Origin: Candidatus Levybacteria bacterium RIFCSPLOWO2_02_FULL_37_18
Lineage (GTDB): Bacteria > Patescibacteriota > Microgenomatia > Levybacterales > UBA12049
Assembly: GCA_001784115.1 (NCBI GenBank)
Contig: MFPD01000025.1
Coordinates: 1 to 40,155, forward strand
Direction of reading: 5' to 3'
Length of the DNA: 40,155 nt
Notes under the pieces: model-generated
Databases searched by the model: none
The model's input: only the letters and a program-made list of their open reading frames with translations
What the model was told of the DNA's origin: nothing
In this document: positions 3,275-10,823 of the stretch, piece after piece
Layout: each line of letters starts with the position of its first letter
Numbering within the stretch: position 1 is the first letter of the stretch
Program-made: the position numbers and the translations under genes

Positions 3275-3829
3275 ATGGAAATAGGAACACTAATTATTAT
3301 AGGAGTAGTTGTAGTTATAGTTTTATACGTCTGGTCTGCTTACAACAGCCTGGCAACCGATGGAGTCAGAATAAAAGAGGCTCTCAGCGGAATAGATGTT
3401 CAATTAAAAAGACGGATAGACTTAATTCCCAACTTAATTGAAACAGTAAAGGGATATGCAAAACATGAAAAGCAATTACTGGAAGAATTAACCAATGCCC
3501 GAACAAGCCTTATCAACGCAAAAACGCCTCATGAGAAAGCAGAGTCGGATAATGTGTTTAGCGGGGCTTTAAAATCGCTTTTCGCAGTCTCGGAAAACTA
3601 TCCCAACCTAAAAGCAAGTGATAACTTTAAACAATTACAAGACGAGTTGTCTGATACCGAAAATAAGATCGCATATTCAAGACAGTTTTACAACACAAAT
3701 GTCAGGGATTATAACGCGATTCTTGTCAATTTTCCAAGCGGGGCAATAGGACGATTCTTTGGGTTTAAAGATATGGAGTTTTTTGAAGCAAGCGATGAAG
3801 AACGTAAGTCTATAAAAGTGTCATTCTGA
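3275..3829 (+). CDS. lemA: LemA family membrane protein
   Basis: 184 residues with an N-terminal hydrophobic segment (about 4-24), then a helical body with the family motif LKRRIDLIPNLIETVKGYAKHEKQLLEELTNAR. It also has the conserved YSRQFYNTNVRDYNAILVNFPS and the C-terminal FEA...KVSF ending. LemA proteins are membrane-anchored helical bundles whose molecular role is not settled; they often sit beside the HtpX protease, as here. A strong ribosome site (GGAGGTGA) precedes the ATG. The last codons and the TGA stop overlap the start of a repeat remnant at 3820. Confidence 0.92.
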   Translation: MEIGTLIIIGVVVVIVLYVWSAYNSLATDGVRIKEALSGIDVQLKRRIDLIPNLIETVKGYAKHEKQLLEELTNARTSLINAKTPHEKAESDNVFSGALKSLFAVSENYPNLKASDNFKQLQDELSDTENKIAYSRQFYNTNVRDYNAILVNFPSGAIGRFFGFKDMEFFEASDEERKSIKVSF

Positions 3830-3845
3830 ACTTAATTCAGAATCT
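3820..3845. repeat. Short palindromic repeat remnant at the lemA stop codon
   Basis: GTCATTCTGAA followed by TTCAGAATC forms an imperfect hairpin. The first half matches the left end of the palindrome inside gatD (7109). The lemA stop codon TGA lies in it. It may be half of a larger element. Confidence 0.55.
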
Positions 3846-3879
3846 TTAGTTTTGACATTTGAGCTTTGCGTTTTGAGTT
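3845..3879 (-). repeat. Degenerate heptanucleotide tandem repeat between lemA and htpX
   Basis: Five 7-base units on the plus strand: TTTAGTT, TTGACAT, TTGAGCT, TTGCGTT, TTGAGTT. Read on the minus strand the last unit is AACTCAA, the unit of the repeat inside gatB at 9797. The array fills the lemA-htpX gap and ends 6 bases before the htpX ATG, where no Shine-Dalgarno site is seen. Confidence 0.7.
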
Positions 3880-3885
3880 GTATTT

Positions 3886-4788
3886 ATGAATATTTATTCT
3901 CAAATCAGCTCCAATAAATACAAAACCTACCTTATTATGGTTTTGTTTATGGCATTTATAACAACTGCTGCTTTTATTTATGGCAAAGCCCAAGGAAGCG
4001 GTTTTTCTTTTGCAGGCATTGCGTTAATTATTTCCGGCTTAACGAGTTTTTTGAGCTATTATTTTTCCGACAAAGTAATTTTATCAATGTCAGGAGCTTC
4101 CGAAATTAAAAAATCGGATAACCCGACTCTATTTCGAATTGTGGAAAATCTCTGTATTGCAGACGGCCTTCCCATGCCAAAAATATACGTAATTCGTGAT
4201 TCTGCATCCAATGCATTTGCAACGGGCAGAGATCCAAAACACGCGGTCGTTTGTGCCACGACCGGAATCTTAGAAAAGTTAAACAGAGCAGAACTCGAAG
4301 GAGTAATCGCCCACGAATTATCCCATGTCAAAAATTATGACATAAGACTTATGAGTATTGTGGTAATTCTGGTTGGCATGATTACCCTTTTGGCTGATTT
4401 TTTTATGCGAAGCTTATGGTGGGGAGACAGGAGAAGAGATAATCGGGAAGGCAATAGTAATATTCAGGCAATTTTTTTAATAATTGGCATTATCTTTGCC
4501 ATTCTATCTCCTATTATTGCCACACTTATACAACTTGCAATCTCCAGAAAGCGGGAATTTTTAGCCGATGCGACCGGTGCGCTTTTGACAAGATACCCGG
4601 AGGGACTTGCTTCTGCTTTGGAAAAAATTGCTAAAGACAAAGAACCCCTAGAAGCTGCTAATAACGCAACTGCTCATTTATATATTGCCAACCCTTTTAA
4701 GGACAAAAATGCTCAATCCTGGTTTGCCAATCTTTTTAATACTCACCCACCAATTGAAGAACGCATTAAAATATTGAGAGCTATGTGA
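3886..4788 (+). CDS. htpX: HtpX-like zinc metalloprotease (M48)
   Basis: 300 residues, the usual HtpX length. It has two N-terminal membrane segments, the zinc site HELSH (about 141-145) and two further membrane segments around VVILVGMITLLADFF and IFLIIGIIFAILSPIIATLI. The third ligand region REFLADATGALL (about 222-233) follows, with a C-terminal THPPIEERI motif. HtpX degrades damaged membrane proteins at the cytoplasmic face. Its pairing with lemA is a common arrangement. No ribosome site is visible, because the preceding bases are a heptamer repeat, so translation may be weak or coupled to lemA. Confidence 0.95.
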   Translation: MNIYSQISSNKYKTYLIMVLFMAFITTAAFIYGKAQGSGFSFAGIALIISGLTSFLSYYFSDKVILSMSGASEIKKSDNPTLFRIVENLCIADGLPMPKIYVIRDSASNAFATGRDPKHAVVCATTGILEKLNRAELEGVIAHELSHVKNYDIRLMSIVVILVGMITLLADFFMRSLWWGDRRRDNREGNSNIQAIFLIIGIIFAILSPIIATLIQLAISRKREFLADATGALLTRYPEGLASALEKIAKDKEPLEAANNATAHLYIANPFKDKNAQSWFANLFNTHPPIEERIKILRAM

Positions 4789-4800
4789 CAGCATACGCCT

Positions 4801-5145
4801 ATGACACAAACACGAGAAGCTGAACCACCAGTTCACGGACCTTTTTTCAAAATAACAAGACTTCCACCAAGTTTAGTTAGAAGAGAACATGGTGTGGTAA
4901 AAGATCATGTTGTTTATTTTCATGCGGGTGATGAAACCATGCAATTCGCTTGGCGTATTCCTGATACATTTGCAGGATATTTAGCGGGAAAAATGGCAGG
5001 ACTTGTGAGTAATCCTCAACTAATTGACGGTCTTGAACAGCGATTAAATGATCCTGATCTTACGCCAGAAGCACAGATATTATTTACCGCTATGGTCAAA
5101 ACAGCTAGAAGAATAAGAACAAACTCAAATCCTCCAAGCCGCTAA
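4801..5145 (+). CDS. Small soluble protein of unknown function
   Basis: I do not recognise this 114-residue protein. It begins MTQTREAEPPVHGPFFKITR and has a short beta-rich part (VVKDHVVYFHAGDETMQFAWRIP). A helical part follows (FAGYLAGKMAGLVSNPQLIDGLEQRL), then a basic tail. No signal peptide, membrane segment or cysteine is present. It starts 12 bases after htpX on the same strand and ends 39 bases before murT, so it is probably in the lemA-htpX transcript. The codon pattern looks coding, but the function is open. Confidence 0.6.
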   Translation: MTQTREAEPPVHGPFFKITRLPPSLVRREHGVVKDHVVYFHAGDETMQFAWRIPDTFAGYLAGKMAGLVSNPQLIDGLEQRLNDPDLTPEAQILFTAMVKTARRIRTNSNPPSR

Positions 5146-5169
5146 GTTTCAAGATTTTACAAACTACGA

Positions 5170-5175
5170 TATAAT
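5170..5175 (+). promoter_or_regulatory. -10 box of murT
   Basis: A perfect TATAAT ends 9 bases before the murT ATG (5185). The best upstream hexamer at 17 bases is TTTCAA, a weak -35. The spacing suggests a leaderless or nearly leaderless mRNA. Confidence 0.4.
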
Positions 5176-5184
5176 AATAGAGCG

Positions 5185-6582
5185 ATGAATTCATTGCTCA
5201 TTTTAATTGGTAAAACTGTTTCTCTTATTAGTAAATCTCTTAACAAAGGTCATGGTTCTACATGGCCCGGGCATATTGCGCTGAGTCTCAACAAGAACTT
5301 TATAAAAGATGTTCTTGCGAAAAATCCTAATCTAAAAATTATTCTTATTGCTGGCACAAACGGCAAAACCACCACTTCCAAACTAATCAGAACAATTCTC
5401 GAACACGCCAAAATCCGCGTAGTCCACAACGAAAGCGGTGCGAATTTATTAAATGGCATTGCCTCTGTTTTTATAAACTTCGCTACTATTAGCACCTATT
5501 TAAACTATAACTATGCTGTCTTTGAGGTGGATGAAAATAGCCTTCCGCTTGTTCTTAATGAACTTATTCCACATTATGTAATACTTCTTAACTTATTTCG
5601 AGATCAATTGGATAGATATGGTGAGGTAAATACCGTTGCATCCAAATGGCAGAAAGCAATAGAACAATTGGGTCACAAAACAATTGTAATTCTCAATGCC
5701 GACGACCCACAGATTGCCTGGCTCGGTTTGTCATTGCGAGCGAAGCGTGGCAATCTATTACAAGAAGAGATTGCTTCGTCATACTTCGACAAGCTCAGTA
5801 TTCCTCGCAATGACAGCACAAGAAGTAATTTGTTGTACTTTGGTCTGAATGAAAAAACAAAATCAAAAATTCCTCAACATGCTTCTGACTCAACCTATTG
5901 TCCAAACTGCAATACAAAACTTTCCTATAAATCAATTTCCTTCTCACACCTTGGCAACTGGCACTGTCCAAACTGTAAAGACAAACGTCCCAAACTTTCT
6001 ATCTCCTCTGTTACAACCTACCCTCTTCCAGGAATGTATAACCGCTACAATACCCTTGCGGCTGTTCTACTTTGTAGAAGTCTAAACATAGAGCTTAAAG
6101 TAATAGATTCTGCCCTGCAGGATTTTGAGCCTGCATTTGGAAGACAAGAAATTATAAATGTTAATAGTAAAAAAGTTCAGCTATTCTTATCAAAAAACCC
6201 AACCAGCTTTAATCAGTCACTGCAAACCATTTATGAACTCAATGCAAAAAACATTCTTATGGTTCTCAATGATAAAATCCCAGACGGAAGAGATGTTTCT
6301 TGGATTTGGGATGTAGACTTTGAGGAATATTTAGACCCACAGACCAATATTGCAATCAGTGGGGATCGCTGTTTTGATATGGGCGTAAGAATTAAGTATT
6401 CAATGGAAATTAAAAATTGCTCACCTCGCGAAGCGGGTAAATTGAAAATTGAGGAAGATTTAAAGAAAGCAATAAACATGGCTCTTTACGAAACTCCAAG
6501 AACAGAGATTTTATATATTTTACCAACTTATTCTGCCATGCTTGAAGTACGAAAAATCCTAACAGGAAAAAAGATACTGTAA
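5185..6582 (+). CDS. murT: Lipid II isoglutaminyl synthase subunit MurT
   Basis: MurT is the Mur-ligase-like, ATP-using half of the MurT-GatD complex, which amidates the alpha-carboxyl of D-Glu in lipid II. It has the P-loop GTNGKTT (about 57-63), LLNLFRDQLDRYGEV, ILNADDP, and a Cys4 zinc ribbon (Cys239, 242, 261, 264). The MurT C-terminal motif DGRDVSWIWD is also present. About residues 182-210 are an in-frame insertion encoded by a palindromic repeat (5730-5814), located between ADDP and the conserved YFGL. It is 465 residues, slightly long because of this insert. gatD follows after 100 bases that contain another repeat. Confidence 0.95.
   Translation: MNSLLILIGKTVSLISKSLNKGHGSTWPGHIALSLNKNFIKDVLAKNPNLKIILIAGTNGKTTTSKLIRTILEHAKIRVVHNESGANLLNGIASVFINFATISTYLNYNYAVFEVDENSLPLVLNELIPHYVILLNLFRDQLDRYGEVNTVASKWQKAIEQLGHKTIVILNADDPQIAWLGLSLRAKRGNLLQEEIASSYFDKLSIPRNDSTRSNLLYFGLNEKTKSKIPQHASDSTYCPNCNTKLSYKSISFSHLGNWHCPNCKDKRPKLSISSVTTYPLPGMYNRYNTLAAVLLCRSLNIELKVIDSALQDFEPAFGRQEIINVNSKKVQLFLSKNPTSFNQSLQTIYELNAKNILMVLNDKIPDGRDVSWIWDVDFEEYLDPQTNIAISGDRCFDMGVRIKYSMEIKNCSPREAGKLKIEEDLKKAINMALYETPRTEILYILPTYSAMLEVRKILTGKKIL
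5730..5814. repeat. Palindromic element, family A, copy 1, inside murT
   Basis: Perfect 11-base terminal inverted repeats, GTCATTGCGAG and CTCGCAATGAC, enclose 63 bases with an inner CAATCT...AGATTG inverted pair. The whole 85-base element is read through in frame as part of MurT (SLRAKRGN...IPRNDS). Two more copies are in gatB. Confidence 0.92.
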
Positions 6583-6590
6583 CTTACAAT

Positions 6591-6646
6591 GTCATTCCGG
6601 GCTTGACCCGGAATCCATATGGATGCTGAATCAAGTTCGGCATGAC
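6591..6646. repeat. Palindromic element between murT and gatD
   Basis: The 56 bases run from GTCATTCCGG to CGGCATGAC, with an inner CCGGGCTTGACCCGG hairpin and a GGAT near the centre. The ends are inverted with one mismatch. The left end shares GTCATTC with the gatD and lemA elements. It occupies most of the murT-gatD gap; no promoter role can be assigned. Confidence 0.75.
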
Positions 6647-6682
6647 GTGAAAAGTGCTTAGGATGATATAACGTATGACATT

Positions 6683-7486
6683 ATGAACTTAACCATCGGT
6701 TGGTTATATCCGGATTTAATGAGTACCTACGGCGATAGGGGTAATATTATTGTGTTTGAGAAAAGATGCCAGTGGAGAAAAATAGATATTGAAGTAAAAA
6801 AACTAGACGTTGGTTTTTCTATGTACGAACTTGAGAGATGCGACTTACTCTTTATGGGAGGCGCTCAAGACAGACAACAAACAATTATAGCAAAAGACCT
6901 TAAAGATAAGACACATGTTTTTAAAGATATTATCAATCGCAATATGCCGGGGCTGTATATTTGCGGTGCATACCAGTTTTTGGGCAATTATTATAAAGAA
7001 GCTGACGGAGCAATAATTCCGGGGCTTGAAATTTTAGATTTGTACACCGAAAACCCCGGCCCCAACCACCCCAGACTTATTGGGAATATTTTGATTGAAC
7101 TTGATCCCGTCATTCTGGGGACTCAAAACGCAGCGCAGAGGACTCCAGAATCTGATTCTAGACAAGTCAGAATGACGACCCTCGTTGGCTTTGAAAACCA
7201 CGGAGGACGAACCTATCTTGGATTAGGGGTTAAACCCCTAGGTAAAGTAAAGGTTGGTTTTGGAAATAATGGAAAAGACGGTACAGAAGGAGCTGTGTAT
7301 AAAAATAGCTTTGGAACTTATTTACACGGCCCAATTCTTCCCAAAAACCCTCATTTTGCAGACATGCTTATTAAAATAGCTTTAGAAAGAAAATACAAAA
7401 AACCTATCGACCTCTCCCCTCTTGAAGATGCACTAGAACTAAATGCTCATGAAACAGTTGTAAAAAAGCTTAGAATCCATATATAA
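6683..7486 (+). CDS. gatD: Lipid II isoglutaminyl synthase, glutamine amidotransferase subunit GatD
   Basis: GatD hydrolyses glutamine and passes ammonia to MurT. The 267-residue class I amidotransferase fold shows the nucleophile in LYICGAYQFLG (Cys94, the same number as in Staphylococcus aureus GatD). It also shows FENHGGRTYLG and the catalytic His in GTYLHGPILPKNP (His215). Residues about 142-165 are an insertion from a palindromic repeat (7109-7176); without it the His would be near 190, as in the family. The ATG at 6683 gives the expected MNLTIGWLYPDLMSTYGDRGN start. gatC follows after 7 bases. Confidence 0.95.
   Translation: MNLTIGWLYPDLMSTYGDRGNIIVFEKRCQWRKIDIEVKKLDVGFSMYELERCDLLFMGGAQDRQQTIIAKDLKDKTHVFKDIINRNMPGLYICGAYQFLGNYYKEADGAIIPGLEILDLYTENPGPNHPRLIGNILIELDPVILGTQNAAQRTPESDSRQVRMTTLVGFENHGGRTYLGLGVKPLGKVKVGFGNNGKDGTEGAVYKNSFGTYLHGPILPKNPHFADMLIKIALERKYKKPIDLSPLEDALELNAHETVVKKLRIHI
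7109..7176. repeat. Palindromic element, family B, inside gatD
   Basis: Perfect 9-base inverted ends GTCATTCTG and CAGAATGAC lie 50 bases apart, with an inner AGAATC/GATTCT pair. It is translated in frame as VILGTQNAAQRTPESDSRQVR just before the conserved VGFENHGG of GatD. Related ends occur at 3820 and 6591. Confidence 0.88.
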
Positions 7487-7487
7487 T
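7458..7487 (+). promoter_or_regulatory. Promoter of gatC, probable leaderless start
   Basis: TTGTAA (7458-7463) and a perfect TATAAT (7482-7487) are 18 bases apart, inside the end of gatD. The -10 ends 6 bases before the gatC ATG, so the RNA would start at the start codon. This would uncouple gatCAB from murT-gatD. Confidence 0.55.
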
Positions 7488-7493
7488 AGATCG

Positions 7494-7775
7494 ATGAAAA
7501 TTAATGTATCTCATGTGGCGAAGTTGGCAAATTTACCTCTCACCGACGAAGAAAAAAAGAAGTTCGAAAACCAGCTTTCTTCAGTTCTTAAATATGTTGA
7601 AAAATTAAGAGAAGTAGATACTTCAAAAGTTGAGGAAACTTCTCAGGTCACAGGTCTTGAAAATGTTTTAAGAGAAGACCAAGCAGCTCCCTCTTTATCT
7701 CAAGGCGATGCTTTAAAAAACGCCAAATCAAAACACAACGGATTATTTAAGGTCCCAGCAATATTAGACGAATGA
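7494..7775 (+). CDS. gatC: Aspartyl/glutamyl-tRNA amidotransferase subunit C
   Basis: GatC is the small, chaperone-like subunit that wraps round GatA and links it to GatB. The 93 residues show the family pattern: VSHVAKLANLPLTDEEKKKFENQLSSVLKYVEKLREVDTS, then LREDQAAPSL and a final KVPAILD. The length is normal. It is first of the gatC-gatA-gatB set and starts just behind a strong -10 box. The stop codon TGA is followed by a palindromic repeat. Confidence 0.95.
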   Translation: MKINVSHVAKLANLPLTDEEKKKFENQLSSVLKYVEKLREVDTSKVEETSQVTGLENVLREDQAAPSLSQGDALKNAKSKHNGLFKVPAILDE

Positions 7776-7778
7776 AAA

Positions 7779-7832
7779 CCCTAGATGCTAGGGATAATAC
7801 ACCTGGGAGGTGTCCTAGATAGGACACCTAGG
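7779..7832. repeat. Palindromic element, family C, between gatC and gatA
   Basis: A compound hairpin: CCCTAG/CTAGGG (7779-7793), CACCT-GGG-AGGTG, and then AGGTGTCCTA-GA-TAGGACACCT, a perfect inverted repeat with a 2-base loop. The 17-base core ATACACCTGGGAGGTGT is identical to the repeat inside pyrF (21675). An open frame runs through it into gatA and can be mistaken for a GatA extension. Confidence 0.88.
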
Positions 7833-7841
7833 AAAAATGTT

Positions 7842-9278
7842 ATGAAATTAAACGAACTGACAATTACTCAAGCAAGAGAAGGGTTACAACAAAAAAAATT
7901 TTCTTCGGTCGAACTTACGAAAGCGTGTTTGGATAGAATTAAACAGGTTGACGGAAAAATAAATGCATTTGTTACGGTTACCGAAGAAGAAGCGCTTGAA
8001 CATGCAAAACATGCAGATAAACTTCTTAACAATATAACAATAGAACAATATAACAATTATCCTTTACTTGGTATCCCTATCGGTCTAAAAGATATGTATA
8101 TGACAAAAGGAATCCGAACAACAGCAGCTTCAAAAGTTCTTGAAAATTACATCCCACAATATGATGCAACAGTGGTCACAAAGTTAAAAAATGCGGGAGC
8201 AATTATTATCGGTAAAACCAATTGTGACGCATGGGCACATGGCAGTAGTGGAGAAAATTCGGATTTTGGCCCAACAAAAAATCCCTGGAATATAGAATAT
8301 GTCCCAGGAGGATCTAGCAGCGGATCAGCAGCTGCGATTGCGGCAGACATGTGTATTGCATCCACAGGAACTGACACAGGAGGATCAATTCGCCTCCCAG
8401 CAAATTTTTGCAATGTCGTTGGCCTTAAACCAACCTATGGCAGGGTAAGCCGTTACGGAATTATTGCTATGGCCTCATCCCTAGATTCTATCGGCCATTT
8501 TACTAAAACAGTAGAAGACTGCGCTCTTATTCTCAATATTACGGCAGGAAACGACTCCTGTGATGCAACCACTCCAAAAAAAAACAAACCAGACTATACA
8601 GAAAGCCTAAAAAAATCAGTGAATGGGTTAAAAATTGGAATTCCAAAAGAGTATTTTGAAATAGGCTTGGACAAAGAAATAAAAGAAAAAACGCTAAAAG
8701 CAGCACAGATTCTAGAGAGTCTCGGCGCTAAAACAGTTGAGGCGTCACTTCCTCATACAGAATATGCTCTTGCCTGCTATTACATTATTGTGCCTTCGGA
8801 AATATCTTCAAACCTCGCAAGGTATGATGGGATTCGGTATGGCATGGAAAGAACAAACTTTGGAGATGAAGCAAAACGAAGAATTATGCTGGGAACCTAC
8901 ACCCTTTCTGCAGGATATTATGACGCGTACTACAAAAAAGCAATGCAGATACGAACTCTTCTTAAACAGGATTTTGATCGAGCATTTGAGAAAGTGGATG
9001 TAATTATTTCCCCAGTTTCTCCAACACCCCCATGGAAACTAGGAGAAAAAGTTAACGATCCGCTTAAAATGTACCTATCGGATATTTATACAATAACAAT
9101 AAATCTTGTAGGAATTCCAGGTCTTTGTGTTCCAATAGGATTTACCAAAAATGAGCTTCCACTAGGAATGCAAATACTCGGTCCGCATTTTTCCGAAGAA
9201 ACACTATTCCAAATTGGTAATGCATTCGAAGAAGTAACAAAAAACGAAGGGTGGAGAAAAAAGAAACCAGTACTATAG
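7842..9278 (+). CDS. gatA: Aspartyl/glutamyl-tRNA amidotransferase subunit A
   Basis: GatA releases ammonia from glutamine for transamidation of misacylated Glu-tRNA(Gln) and/or Asp-tRNA(Asn). It is an amidase-signature enzyme of 478 residues. The triad is visible as Lys83 (IGLKDMY), cis-Ser158 (GGSSSGSAAA) and nucleophile Ser182 (GTDTGGSIR). Each is four residues later than the K79-S154-S178 of S. aureus GatA, which supports the start at 7842 (MKLNELT). An upstream in-frame ATG at 7785 would add 19 residues encoded by the palindromic repeat and is unlikely to be used. The gap to gatB contains a perfect palindrome. Confidence 0.96.
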   Translation: MKLNELTITQAREGLQQKKFSSVELTKACLDRIKQVDGKINAFVTVTEEEALEHAKHADKLLNNITIEQYNNYPLLGIPIGLKDMYMTKGIRTTAASKVLENYIPQYDATVVTKLKNAGAIIIGKTNCDAWAHGSSGENSDFGPTKNPWNIEYVPGGSSSGSAAAIAADMCIASTGTDTGGSIRLPANFCNVVGLKPTYGRVSRYGIIAMASSLDSIGHFTKTVEDCALILNITAGNDSCDATTPKKNKPDYTESLKKSVNGLKIGIPKEYFEIGLDKEIKEKTLKAAQILESLGAKTVEASLPHTEYALACYYIIVPSEISSNLARYDGIRYGMERTNFGDEAKRRIMLGTYTLSAGYYDAYYKKAMQIRTLLKQDFDRAFEKVDVIISPVSPTPPWKLGEKVNDPLKMYLSDIYTITINLVGIPGLCVPIGFTKNELPLGMQILGPHFSEETLFQIGNAFEEVTKNEGWRKKKPVL

Positions 9279-9279
9279 A

Positions 9280-9307
9280 CACTATAATAATACGTATTAT
9301 TATAGTG
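9280..9307. repeat. Perfect 28-base palindrome between gatA and gatB
   Basis: CACTATAATAATAC is followed at once by its reverse complement. It lies 1 base after the gatA stop and 16 bases before the gatB start. There is no T run after it, so a classical terminator is unlikely. It could be an operator, a processing hairpin or another mobile repeat. It contains a TATAAT on both strands. Confidence 0.8.
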
Positions 9308-9323
9308 AATAAAAAGAAATATT

Positions 9324-10823
9324 GTGCAAAATTATAAATATCAACCAGTTATAGGTTTAGAAGTTCATGTTGAGCTTAAAACAAAATCAAAAATGTTCTG
9401 CAGATGCTCTGCAGAACATTTTGGTCAAGAACCAAACACGCACACATGTCCAGTCTGCTTAGGTCTTCCAGGCGCTTTACCTGTACCGAATAAAACCGCA
9501 ATTGAGTGGTGTGTGATGATTGGGTTAGCACTAAGCTGTGAGATACCGCTTTTTTCTAAGTTTGATCGAAAAAATTATTTTTATCCTGATCTTGCCAAAG
9601 GCTACCAAATTTCCCAATACGACCAACCATTCGCGATCAATGGAAAAGTTGTCATTGCGAGGAACGAAGCGACGAAGCAATCCCTTAAAAAAGAGATTGC
9701 TACGACTCCTTCTGTGTCTCGCAATGACGCTAAGGTAATCAGGATTCGAAGGGTTCATATGGAAGAAGACACAGCCAAATTGATGCATCAATTTGGAACT
9801 CAAAACTCAAATATCAAAACTCAAAATGAGGAAAAATATTCCTTAATAGATTTTAATCGCTCTGGTGTTCCATTGGTTGAAATAGTAACAGAACCTGATT
9901 TTTCATCAGCAGATGAGGTTACAGAATATCTAAAAAAACTCCAGCAGATAGTTCGCTACTTAGACGTCTCCAACGCAGACATGGAAAAAGGCGACATGCG
10001 CCTCGAGCCGAATATTTCTTTAAAAAAAGTGTCATTGCGAGGAATGGTGAGCGAAGTCGAACCAGACAGAGCAATCTCTAGAGATCGCCACGCTAACGCT
10101 CGCGATGACAATAAAGAACTCCCAAAGTATAAAGTTGAAGTGAAGAATATCAATTCTTTTCGATTCGTAGATAAAGCAATACGGTTTGAACTGAAACGAC
10201 AAGCAGAACTACTAGACAAAAGAGAAACCCCTGCTCAGGAAACCAGAGGTTGGGATGAGAAAAAAGGGGCAACTGTTTCTCAAAGAAGTAAAGAAGAAGC
10301 GCACGATTATCGCTATTTTCCCGAACCGGATATACCACCAGTCCGTTGGACGGAATCTCAAATCTCAAATCTCAAATCTCAAATGTGCGAATTACCTGAT
10401 ACGAAGTTCAATCGGTTTCAAAAGGAATATAAACTAAACGAATACGATGCGGAGATACTTACCAGAGAACAAGAATTGGCAGATTATTTTGAAGAAGCTG
10501 TAAAAGTCGGAAAAGAACACAATATTACTTCAAAATCTATCGCAAATACTATTATTAATAGAAAAATAAACACCGAACAAGTTTTGCCTGCAGAATTAAT
10601 AAAAAACATTATCCAAATATCCCAAACTTTCCAAATAAACCCAGATGAACTAGAAAAAATAGTTGAGCAAGTTCTTTCAGAAAACCAAAAGGCAGTCGAC
10701 GACTACAAAAAAGGGGAAACTCAGATCATGGGATTTTTAATAGGAAGAATAAAACAGCATTTTCCTTCAAGCGATACGAATCAAATAAAAAAAGCTCTTG
10801 AAACATCCATACTAAATACTTAA
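9324..10823 (+). CDS. gatB: Aspartyl/glutamyl-tRNA amidotransferase subunit B
   Basis: GatB binds the misacylated tRNA and performs the kinase/transamidation step. Family motifs include GLEVHVELKTKSKMFC with C...CPVCLGLPG (zinc site), FYPDLAKGYQISQYD, RRVHMEEDTAKL, FNRSGVPLVEIVTEPD, VEVKNINSFRFV and DYRYFPEPDIPP. The C-terminal YqeY-like helical tail ends MGFLIGRIKQHFP. Four insertions interrupt conserved blocks at about residues 109-135, 158-169, 236-262 and 343-353. Two come from palindromic repeats and two from heptamer arrays, which explains the 499-residue length. The start is GTG; the reading fits the family start QPVIGLEVHVEL, and no clear ribosome site is seen. Confidence 0.96.
   Translation: MQNYKYQPVIGLEVHVELKTKSKMFCRCSAEHFGQEPNTHTCPVCLGLPGALPVPNKTAIEWCVMIGLALSCEIPLFSKFDRKNYFYPDLAKGYQISQYDQPFAINGKVVIARNEATKQSLKKEIATTPSVSRNDAKVIRIRRVHMEEDTAKLMHQFGTQNSNIKTQNEEKYSLIDFNRSGVPLVEIVTEPDFSSADEVTEYLKKLQQIVRYLDVSNADMEKGDMRLEPNISLKKVSLRGMVSEVEPDRAISRDRHANARDDNKELPKYKVEVKNINSFRFVDKAIRFELKRQAELLDKRETPAQETRGWDEKKGATVSQRSKEEAHDYRYFPEPDIPPVRWTESQISNLKSQMCELPDTKFNRFQKEYKLNEYDAEILTREQELADYFEEAVKVGKEHNITSKSIANTIINRKINTEQVLPAELIKNIIQISQTFQINPDELEKIVEQVLSENQKAVDDYKKGETQIMGFLIGRIKQHFPSSDTNQIKKALETSILNT
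9651..9728. repeat. Palindromic element, family A, copy 2, inside gatB
   Basis: 78 bases with perfect 11-base inverted ends identical to copy 1 (GTCATTGCGAG / CTCGCAATGAC). It is translated as VIARNEATKQS...SRND between ISQYDQPFAINGK and IRIRRVHMEED of GatB. The reading frame at the left end differs from copies 1 and 3, while the right end is read in the same frame in all three. Confidence 0.92.
9797..9830 (+). repeat. Heptanucleotide tandem repeat inside gatB, array 1
   Basis: Units AACTCAA, AACTCAA, ATATCAA, AACTCAA, then AATG. They encode TQNSNIKTQN between the conserved HMEEDTAKL and the SLIDFNRSGVPL blocks of GatB. The unit is the same as in the lemA-htpX array, there on the other strand. 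Confidence 0.83.
10031..10109. repeat. Palindromic element, family A, copy 3, inside gatB
   Basis: 79 bases from GTCATTGCGAG to CTCGCGATGAC, with one mismatch between the inverted ends. The inner part (CAATCTCTAGAGATCGCC) is more degenerate than in copies 1 and 2. It is translated as SLRGMVSEVEPDRA...ARDDN just before YKVEVKNINSFRF of GatB. Confidence 0.88.
10354..10381 (+). repeat. Heptanucleotide tandem repeat inside gatB, array 2
   Basis: Four exact copies of AATCTCA. They encode ESQISNLKSQ between the conserved PEPDIPPVRW and the LPDTKFNRFQ block of GatB. Exact copies suggest a recent event. Confidence 0.87.

Follow-up and report, generated by a model that had tools for sequence, protein, structure and literature searches.

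Many copies of CGTC-tagged paired hairpins in a Microgenomates genome, some of them in frame in conserved genes

Results

Palindromic elements and their host genes in the window

The window, i.e. the whole stretch of 40,155 nucleotides that was analysed, is one contig (C25) of a genome of 1,110,745 bases in 31 contigs. It carries murT (5185..6582, 465 aa; PDB sequence matches 6fqb, 7q8e and 6gs2) and gatD (6683..7486, 267 aa; PDB sequence matches 5n9m, 6gs2, 9sq9 and 6fqb), which encodes the glutaminase subunit of lipid II isoglutaminyl synthase, together with a gene of 184 aa at 3275..3829 that we take to be lemA and one of 499 aa at 9324..10823 that, from its sequence features, is presumably gatB. 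These four genes and the palindromic elements in and between them are on the + strand. What we assume to be an integrase-like (IS3-like) fragment occupies 35-292, where the window starts at the contig end, and an inverted repeat (CCTAGATGCTAGGG...GGACACCTAGG) lies at 7785-7835, at the start of the ORF after gatC. The closest GatD in a named collection comes from Levybacteria or Levyibacteriota MAGs (65% identical at best), and the nearest one among the relatives compared below is ~70% identical; judged from sequence, the host belongs to the Microgenomates and is of Levybacteria type.

A preliminary description of this DNA had pointed to three related palindromic sites, one coding, one intergenic and one on a stop codon, and all three are present in these positions. 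The coding one is a CTGG-type palindromic pair in gatD (7109..7176), which encodes 23 residues of GatD at about 142-165 (VILGTQNAAQRTPESDSRQVRMT) and whose outer 10-nt arms are perfectly complementary once 7108 and 7177 are counted in. Between murT and gatD (6591..6646) lies a head-to-head hairpin pair with CCGGG/CCGAA arms, consisting of an 8-bp stem with a 5-nt loop and a second hairpin. The third element, a lone CTGAA-type hairpin (3820..3843; 8-bp stem, 5-nt loop), starts on the final codons and the TGA stop of lemA. It begins with GTG TCA TTC TGA, the usual VSF-stop: in relatives LemA ends in V-[SKTQAN]-F or ISF, with the stop codon immediately after in 28 of 30. Since the start of the element spells this customary ending, the LemA protein is left unchanged. 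Similar units were seen by eye at most ~20 bases past the lemA stop in three other genomes (G003, G008, G012).

The most prominent coding copies nearby had been overlooked and are of another, TTGCGAG type. One palindromic pair of this type lies in murT (5730..5814, residues 182-210) and two lie in gatB (9651..9728, residues 110-135; 10031..10109, residues 236-262), lengthening the respective proteins by 26-29 residues per insert. Folding each copy, as had been proposed, gave a mixed outcome. The DNA folds of the murT-gatD element (z -3.6; as good in 0 of 200 shuffles) and of the lemA hairpin (z -3.1) stand out, as do those of the MurT insert (z -5.8) and the GatB inserts (z -6.4 for 9651-9728, z -3.1 for 10031-10109), whereas for the gatD copy on its own the fold is not significant (z -1.45 vs shuffles).

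In the proteins, the inserts extend turns. The expected surplus of about 23 residues in GatD was borne out, the beta-hairpin turn having 23 residues in comparison to 2 in S. aureus GatD; the corresponding MurT turn has 33 residues vs 4 in S. aureus MurT. In the AlphaFold model of GatD (mean pLDDT 88) the insert lies between strands 134-140 and 166-171. Residues 148-157 have pLDDT values below 50, and the insert is predicted to be a disordered loop. Outside the insert the model matches 6h5e_A (239 aligned residues, Z 31.2, rmsd 2.1).

Copy number and types in the genome

Counts were made for the whole genome and for a sample that totals 373,614 bases, or 34% of it, and comprises the window and 20 further stretches; the sample is non-random, as contig starts were taken and one stretch was picked for a hit. 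In the sample, paired elements of the form GTCAT...ATGAC were found 45 times (44 distinct, two overlapping L016 rows being merged as one) vs 0 in the reversed control, and GTCAT followed by a perfect hairpin 38 times vs 1. In the whole genome there are 94 sites of GTCATTGCGAG vs 1 in the control, 32 CTGAA-type pairs vs 0, and 5 places with the CTGG/CCAGAATCAGATTCTGG core vs 0. The GTCATTC 7-mer by itself is not enriched in the window (5 found, 4.35 expected). The significance of the sites therefore lies in the genome-wide counts and the structure, and not in the 7-mer ends within the window. GTAG-tagged hairpins are not enriched in the sample (8 vs 10 in the control), which speaks against GTAG REPs, and Rfam gave no match to 3700-10300 at E up to 1.

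Three types can be distinguished. Type A, CTGAA-like, has an 8-bp stem and a 5-nt loop, is mostly paired and mostly intergenic, and includes the single lemA hairpin and the murT-gatD element. Type B, CTGG, is rare; apart from the gatD copy it has few members. Type C, TTGCGAG, includes the MurT insert and both GatB inserts. A (C/T)GTCAT tag, the mark of one superfamily, is common to all three. The earlier assignment of the three noted sites to one family thus holds at the level of this tag and not at the level of type, the gatD copy being CTGG and the other two CTGAA-like. The ends recur far beyond their controls, one noted copy is coding and the others are intergenic or on a stop, so that the unrelated hairpins that the preliminary description had named as the alternative do not account for them. 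The analysis confirms the three sites, which form part of a population of GTCAT...ATGAC palindromes dispersed over the whole genome.

Coding copies

An element was counted as coding if a spanning ORF had at least 40 codons on each side of it. By this measure the coding elements of the sample are 10 of 18 in type C, 1 of 5 in type B, 1 of 18 in type A and 2 of 3 among the others; type C is coding more often than type A (p 0.003). These fractions are rough, since the spanning-ORF test selects open elements and is partly circular. Non-coding TTGCGAG copies do not have fewer stops than expected (1.75 open frames of 6 vs 1.69 in shuffled sequence), so there is no sign of the TTGCGAG element being built for coding, and the idea that it is stop-free by design is unsupported.

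All eight in-frame host ORFs that were scanned have a Pfam family: FolD, F420 ligase-like, TsaD, RecX, ribosomal protein L1, methyltransferase and two TMEM260-like proteins. MurT, GatD and GatB are further in-frame hosts. In GatD, MurT and GatB of the window and its relatives, 15 of 15 retained elements lie within a single tblastn alignment, i.e. the frame is kept on both sides.

A TMEM260-like protein of 979 aa (L019:14159-17098) has three in-frame palindromes and the adjoining TMEM260-like paralogue (L019:7141-9567) has one. In ribosomal protein L1 (L019:4740-5588) an in-frame TTGCGAG palindrome lies close to the N terminus.

Flanks, arms and carrier elements

No target duplication was found in 42 elements, the longest duplicate being 4 bases (p 0.27 vs re-paired flanks). 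GTCAT is preceded by T in 34 of the 42 paired elements and by C in 6; beyond this T/C and the mirror A/G, the flanks have no target in common. Within CTGAA-type pairs, left and right arms are alike at the sixth base in only 1 of 19 (6.0 expected, p 0.007), a comparison that excludes 13 more copies of one subtype because these are related by descent.

One subtype of CTGAA pair sits in the middle of a MITE of ~124 bases with the inverted ends GTAACTGTTCAC / GTGACCTGTTAC, which have 32 matches in the genome vs 0 in the control. Copies carrying the pair include L007:10432-10555, L018:15162-15285, L021:11970-12093 and L022:6625-6748, and at some copies of the MITE clear 8-base target duplications are seen. 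Hitch-hiking is thus a real route of spread, for this CTGAA subset only.

Three further arrangements were noted. The L018 copy of the MITE is inserted within a TTGCGAG palindrome (duplication CGCAATGA). At L003:1068-1149 a TTGCGAG-type palindrome lies between the flanks of the ~124-base MITE, as if the core palindrome had been exchanged. The CTGAA-type pairs at L011:5214-5294 and L020:19140-19220 have identical outer flanks (gacataaat...aatgtgaattatgt) and perhaps belong to a second carrier element.

The same turns in relatives

We compared 57 distinct GatD, 56 MurT and 51 GatB ORFs from 98 loci. A scan with a looser tag, for which reversed controls in the genes gave 11 (GatD), 15 (MurT) and 3 (GatB) rows, was reduced to 15 elements in which the inner repeats are true ones; duplicate entries from the same genome were merged. 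The strict scan had 2, 3 and 0 rows in the respective controls; four of its rows were left out as ordinary conserved sequence (L086 in GatD; L108, L110 and the second L089 row in MurT), as was one of two overlapping L079 rows. L174, with decayed ends, was included by eye.

As the proposed comparison of GatD with CPR relatives had sought, the turn that is filled in the window was also found filled in others: palindromes occupy this one GatD turn in the window, L065, L070, L079, L153 and L171, and in decayed form in L174. Those of L065 and L070 are near-identical (63 of 68 bases) and may stem from one insertion, so that six different palindromes are counted at the turn. In MurT, four different palindromes lie at residues 181-183 in the window, L149, L155 and L174 (decayed), in a turn that is 4 residues long in most relatives. 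Other MurT sites are 126-131, common to L084 and L089, and 408-420, where L149 has an extra element. In GatB, different palindromes directly follow residue 235 in the window and in L071/L207. The recurrence in the MurT 181-183 and GatB 235 turns is within two residues.

If elements were placed uniformly, 5 of 5 would fall in the GatD turn with p 1e-5; for 6 of 6 or 7 of 7, such clustering did not arise once in 300,000 and 200,000 trials. For the cluster in MurT, p is 5e-5 to 8e-5, or 0.002 without the decayed L174 and one of L084/L089, and for the GatB pair at 235 it is 0.02. In trees built without the loop columns, MurT needs 4 changes for 4 inserts, all 4 forced by well-supported branches, and GatD needs 7 changes for 7 inserts, at least 4 of them forced. 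Both trees thus favour repeated insertion over one insertion that diverged; the argument from GatD is weaker, owing to the poorer resolution of its tree.

Even where they hold no palindrome, the hot turns differ in length (2 residues in S. aureus and 11-26 in others). In L067, L072, L074, L086 and L092 the GatD turn holds tandem 7-mer-like AT-rich repeats and no GTCAT palindromes. At the GatB residue 110 turn, the site of the first insert in the window, long repeat-like inserts are also present in L065 and L205.

Discussion

Our analysis shows that the dispersed paired hairpins belong to the CGTC-tagged REP superfamily, with many copies in this Microgenomates genome, some of them in frame in conserved genes. 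We consider it likely that they are mobile CGTC-tagged hairpins which insert nearly at random and are then filtered by what the host proteins tolerate. On this view the palindromes would be mobile but non-autonomous; they would spread in the form of folded single-stranded DNA, create no target duplication and land at close to random positions. That they move at all we infer from sequence comparison. An insertion within a gene would persist only if the frame is kept, no stop is present and the turn can be extended, and a surviving insert would simply be translated into a disordered surface loop. The turns filled recurrently, before GFENHG in GatD, after NADDPxxxxLG in MurT and after EPNISL in GatB, would be such places. 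Since only a few turns might tolerate inserts, unrelated insertions could come to lie at the same residues in different species.

Bringing together a coding, an intergenic and a stop-codon copy had been thought useful for working out how the family spreads. The question has only been narrowed, there being no target duplication and no Y1 gene flanked by the units. Our likeliest guess for the mover is an enzyme of the TnpA-REP/Y1 kind that acts in trans. For GTAG REPs, TnpA-REP is the presumed mover, and IS200/IS605 chemistry involves a hairpin with a guide tetranucleotide and no target duplication, which the elements described here fit. This genome has seven Y1_Tnp matches, and Y1 genes are present in 26 of 28 class genomes with at least 10 GTCATTGCGAG sites vs 110 of 159 others (p 0.01, from hand-entered counts). 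However, none of 36 Y1 loci, 7 from this genome and 29 from relatives (the latter mostly the best-scoring IS200-like ones), is flanked by CGTC units, the seven own loci having one hairpin ~1 kb off, and the repeat-rich genomes G001 and G170 have no Y1 match. The same lack of a linked transposase is described for other phyla in the published account of CGTC-tagged REPs drawn on here (PMC3733652). That a host Y1 (RAYT-like) transposase moves the pairs is therefore possible, though rather doubtful.

An integration hotspot, at which the mobilising enzyme chooses DNA targets, e.g. local sequence or hairpins, irrespective of protein tolerance, appears unlikely. The recurrence within two residues at MurT 181-183 and GatB 235 is sharper than tolerance alone might need. 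Against this, apart from the T/C that precedes GTCAT and the mirrored A/G, the flanks of the 42 elements have no common or duplicated target, the hot turns differ in length even where no palindrome is present, and the same GatD turn has taken up 7-mer-like repeats in five relatives. A still bolder version, an active palindrome system with a non-RAYT, target-choosing enzyme that rebuilds the loops of MurT, GatD and GatB lineage after lineage and so supplies new protein segments, we regard as quite unlikely.

It is very unlikely that each site goes back to one ancestral insertion and that its palindrome diverged afterwards or had others written over it, as has been proposed in Rickettsia for RPE-4, RPE-6 and RPE-7 by Matsutani and co-workers in the part of their study considered here (PMC3767692). 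L065 and L070 may indeed share one insertion of the same palindrome, and L084 and L089 adjoin in the MurT tree. However, relatives with the short 4-residue MurT turn are interspersed among the filled ones, and the separate changes needed by the MurT tree disfavour a single origin for this protein. Highly improbable is domestication, i.e. that selection keeps the additional loop because it is of use to the enzyme. The loop is intact in a conserved enzyme pair, and MurT and GatD both bear inserts in this genome and in G004 (L174), but the sequence, length and reading frame of the loop differ from species to species, it is absent from most relatives and it is predicted to be disordered. Unrelated chance hairpins or ordinary terminators, as the chance-level 7-mer ends in the window could suggest, are rejected by the counts against reversed controls (38 vs 1, 45 vs 0 and 94 vs 1), and their probability is practically nil.

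If the hairpins are mobile and filtered by protein tolerance, the insert-bearing loops would be a natural map of where these enzymes accept extra sequence. Peptides such as VIARNEATKQS or CHPELVSGS in predicted proteins of such genomes should be read as translated repeats and not as new domains.

Among known systems, bacterial MITEs are short, non-coding and present in many copies. The palindromes resemble them in size and number and differ in having no target duplication; only the carrier of the one CTGAA subset is a true MITE with 8-base duplications. As paired hairpins acting as a non-autonomous unit, the elements also resemble REPINs and GTAG REPs with RAYT, as far as these are covered by the reports used here (PMC3116915, PMC8266576), but no RAYT gene is flanked by units in our case.

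The closest match is with the CGTC-tagged REPs surveyed by Di Nocera, De Gregorio and Rocco in 2013 (PMC3733652), a superfamily that takes in the Rickettsia elements RPE-4 and RPE-6. According to the portion of the survey used here, they occur in 5 phyla, mostly in alpha-Proteobacteria, and have a CGTC or TGTC tag, 8-9 bp stems starting with AT and loops of 4-5; they form mostly head-to-head pairs, with unlike arms preferred in some families, some lie within genes, and no linked transposase is described. The Levybacteria elements are alike in tag, stem, loop, head-to-head pairing and the absence of a linked transposase (PMC3733652). Most hairpins listed here have an 8-bp stem and a 5-nt loop and few differ; their tails, seen by eye and uncounted, are CTA, CTT, CTC or CCA, where the CGTC REP tail, short and unpaired, is often CCA. 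In contrast to the CGTC-tagged REPs, the TTGCGAG and CTGG types are longer, branched pairs in which only the stem start is kept. The survey predates common Microgenomates genomes (PMC3733652). A literature search found nothing related for the 11-mer GTCATTGCGAG, nothing for the peptide CHPELVSGS and, among the search listings, no such elements in Microgenomates or CPR, a result that argues only weakly for their absence. Within the reach of these searches, the kind of element is known, and the host group and the separate filling of the same enzyme turns are new; protein-coding palindromes are thereby extended to the Candidate Phyla Radiation.

RPE-4, RPE-6 and RPE-7 offer the nearest parallel for the coding copies. 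In the account of Matsutani and co-workers (2013) that we rely on, different groups of these elements occupy one place in orthologues, and the choice between a hotspot and one diverged insertion is left undecided (PMC3767692). Likened by description, both sets have ATGAC-rich ends, lie in frame in conserved genes and place different groups at the same site (PMC3767692). As our host is outside Rickettsia and Wolbachia, we file its elements as CGTC REPs and not as RPEs. That account deals with Rickettsia only (PMC3767692). In the present case relatives with an empty site separate the filled ones, and same-site insertions with empty relatives between them bear directly on the Rickettsia question of a hotspot or one old insertion.
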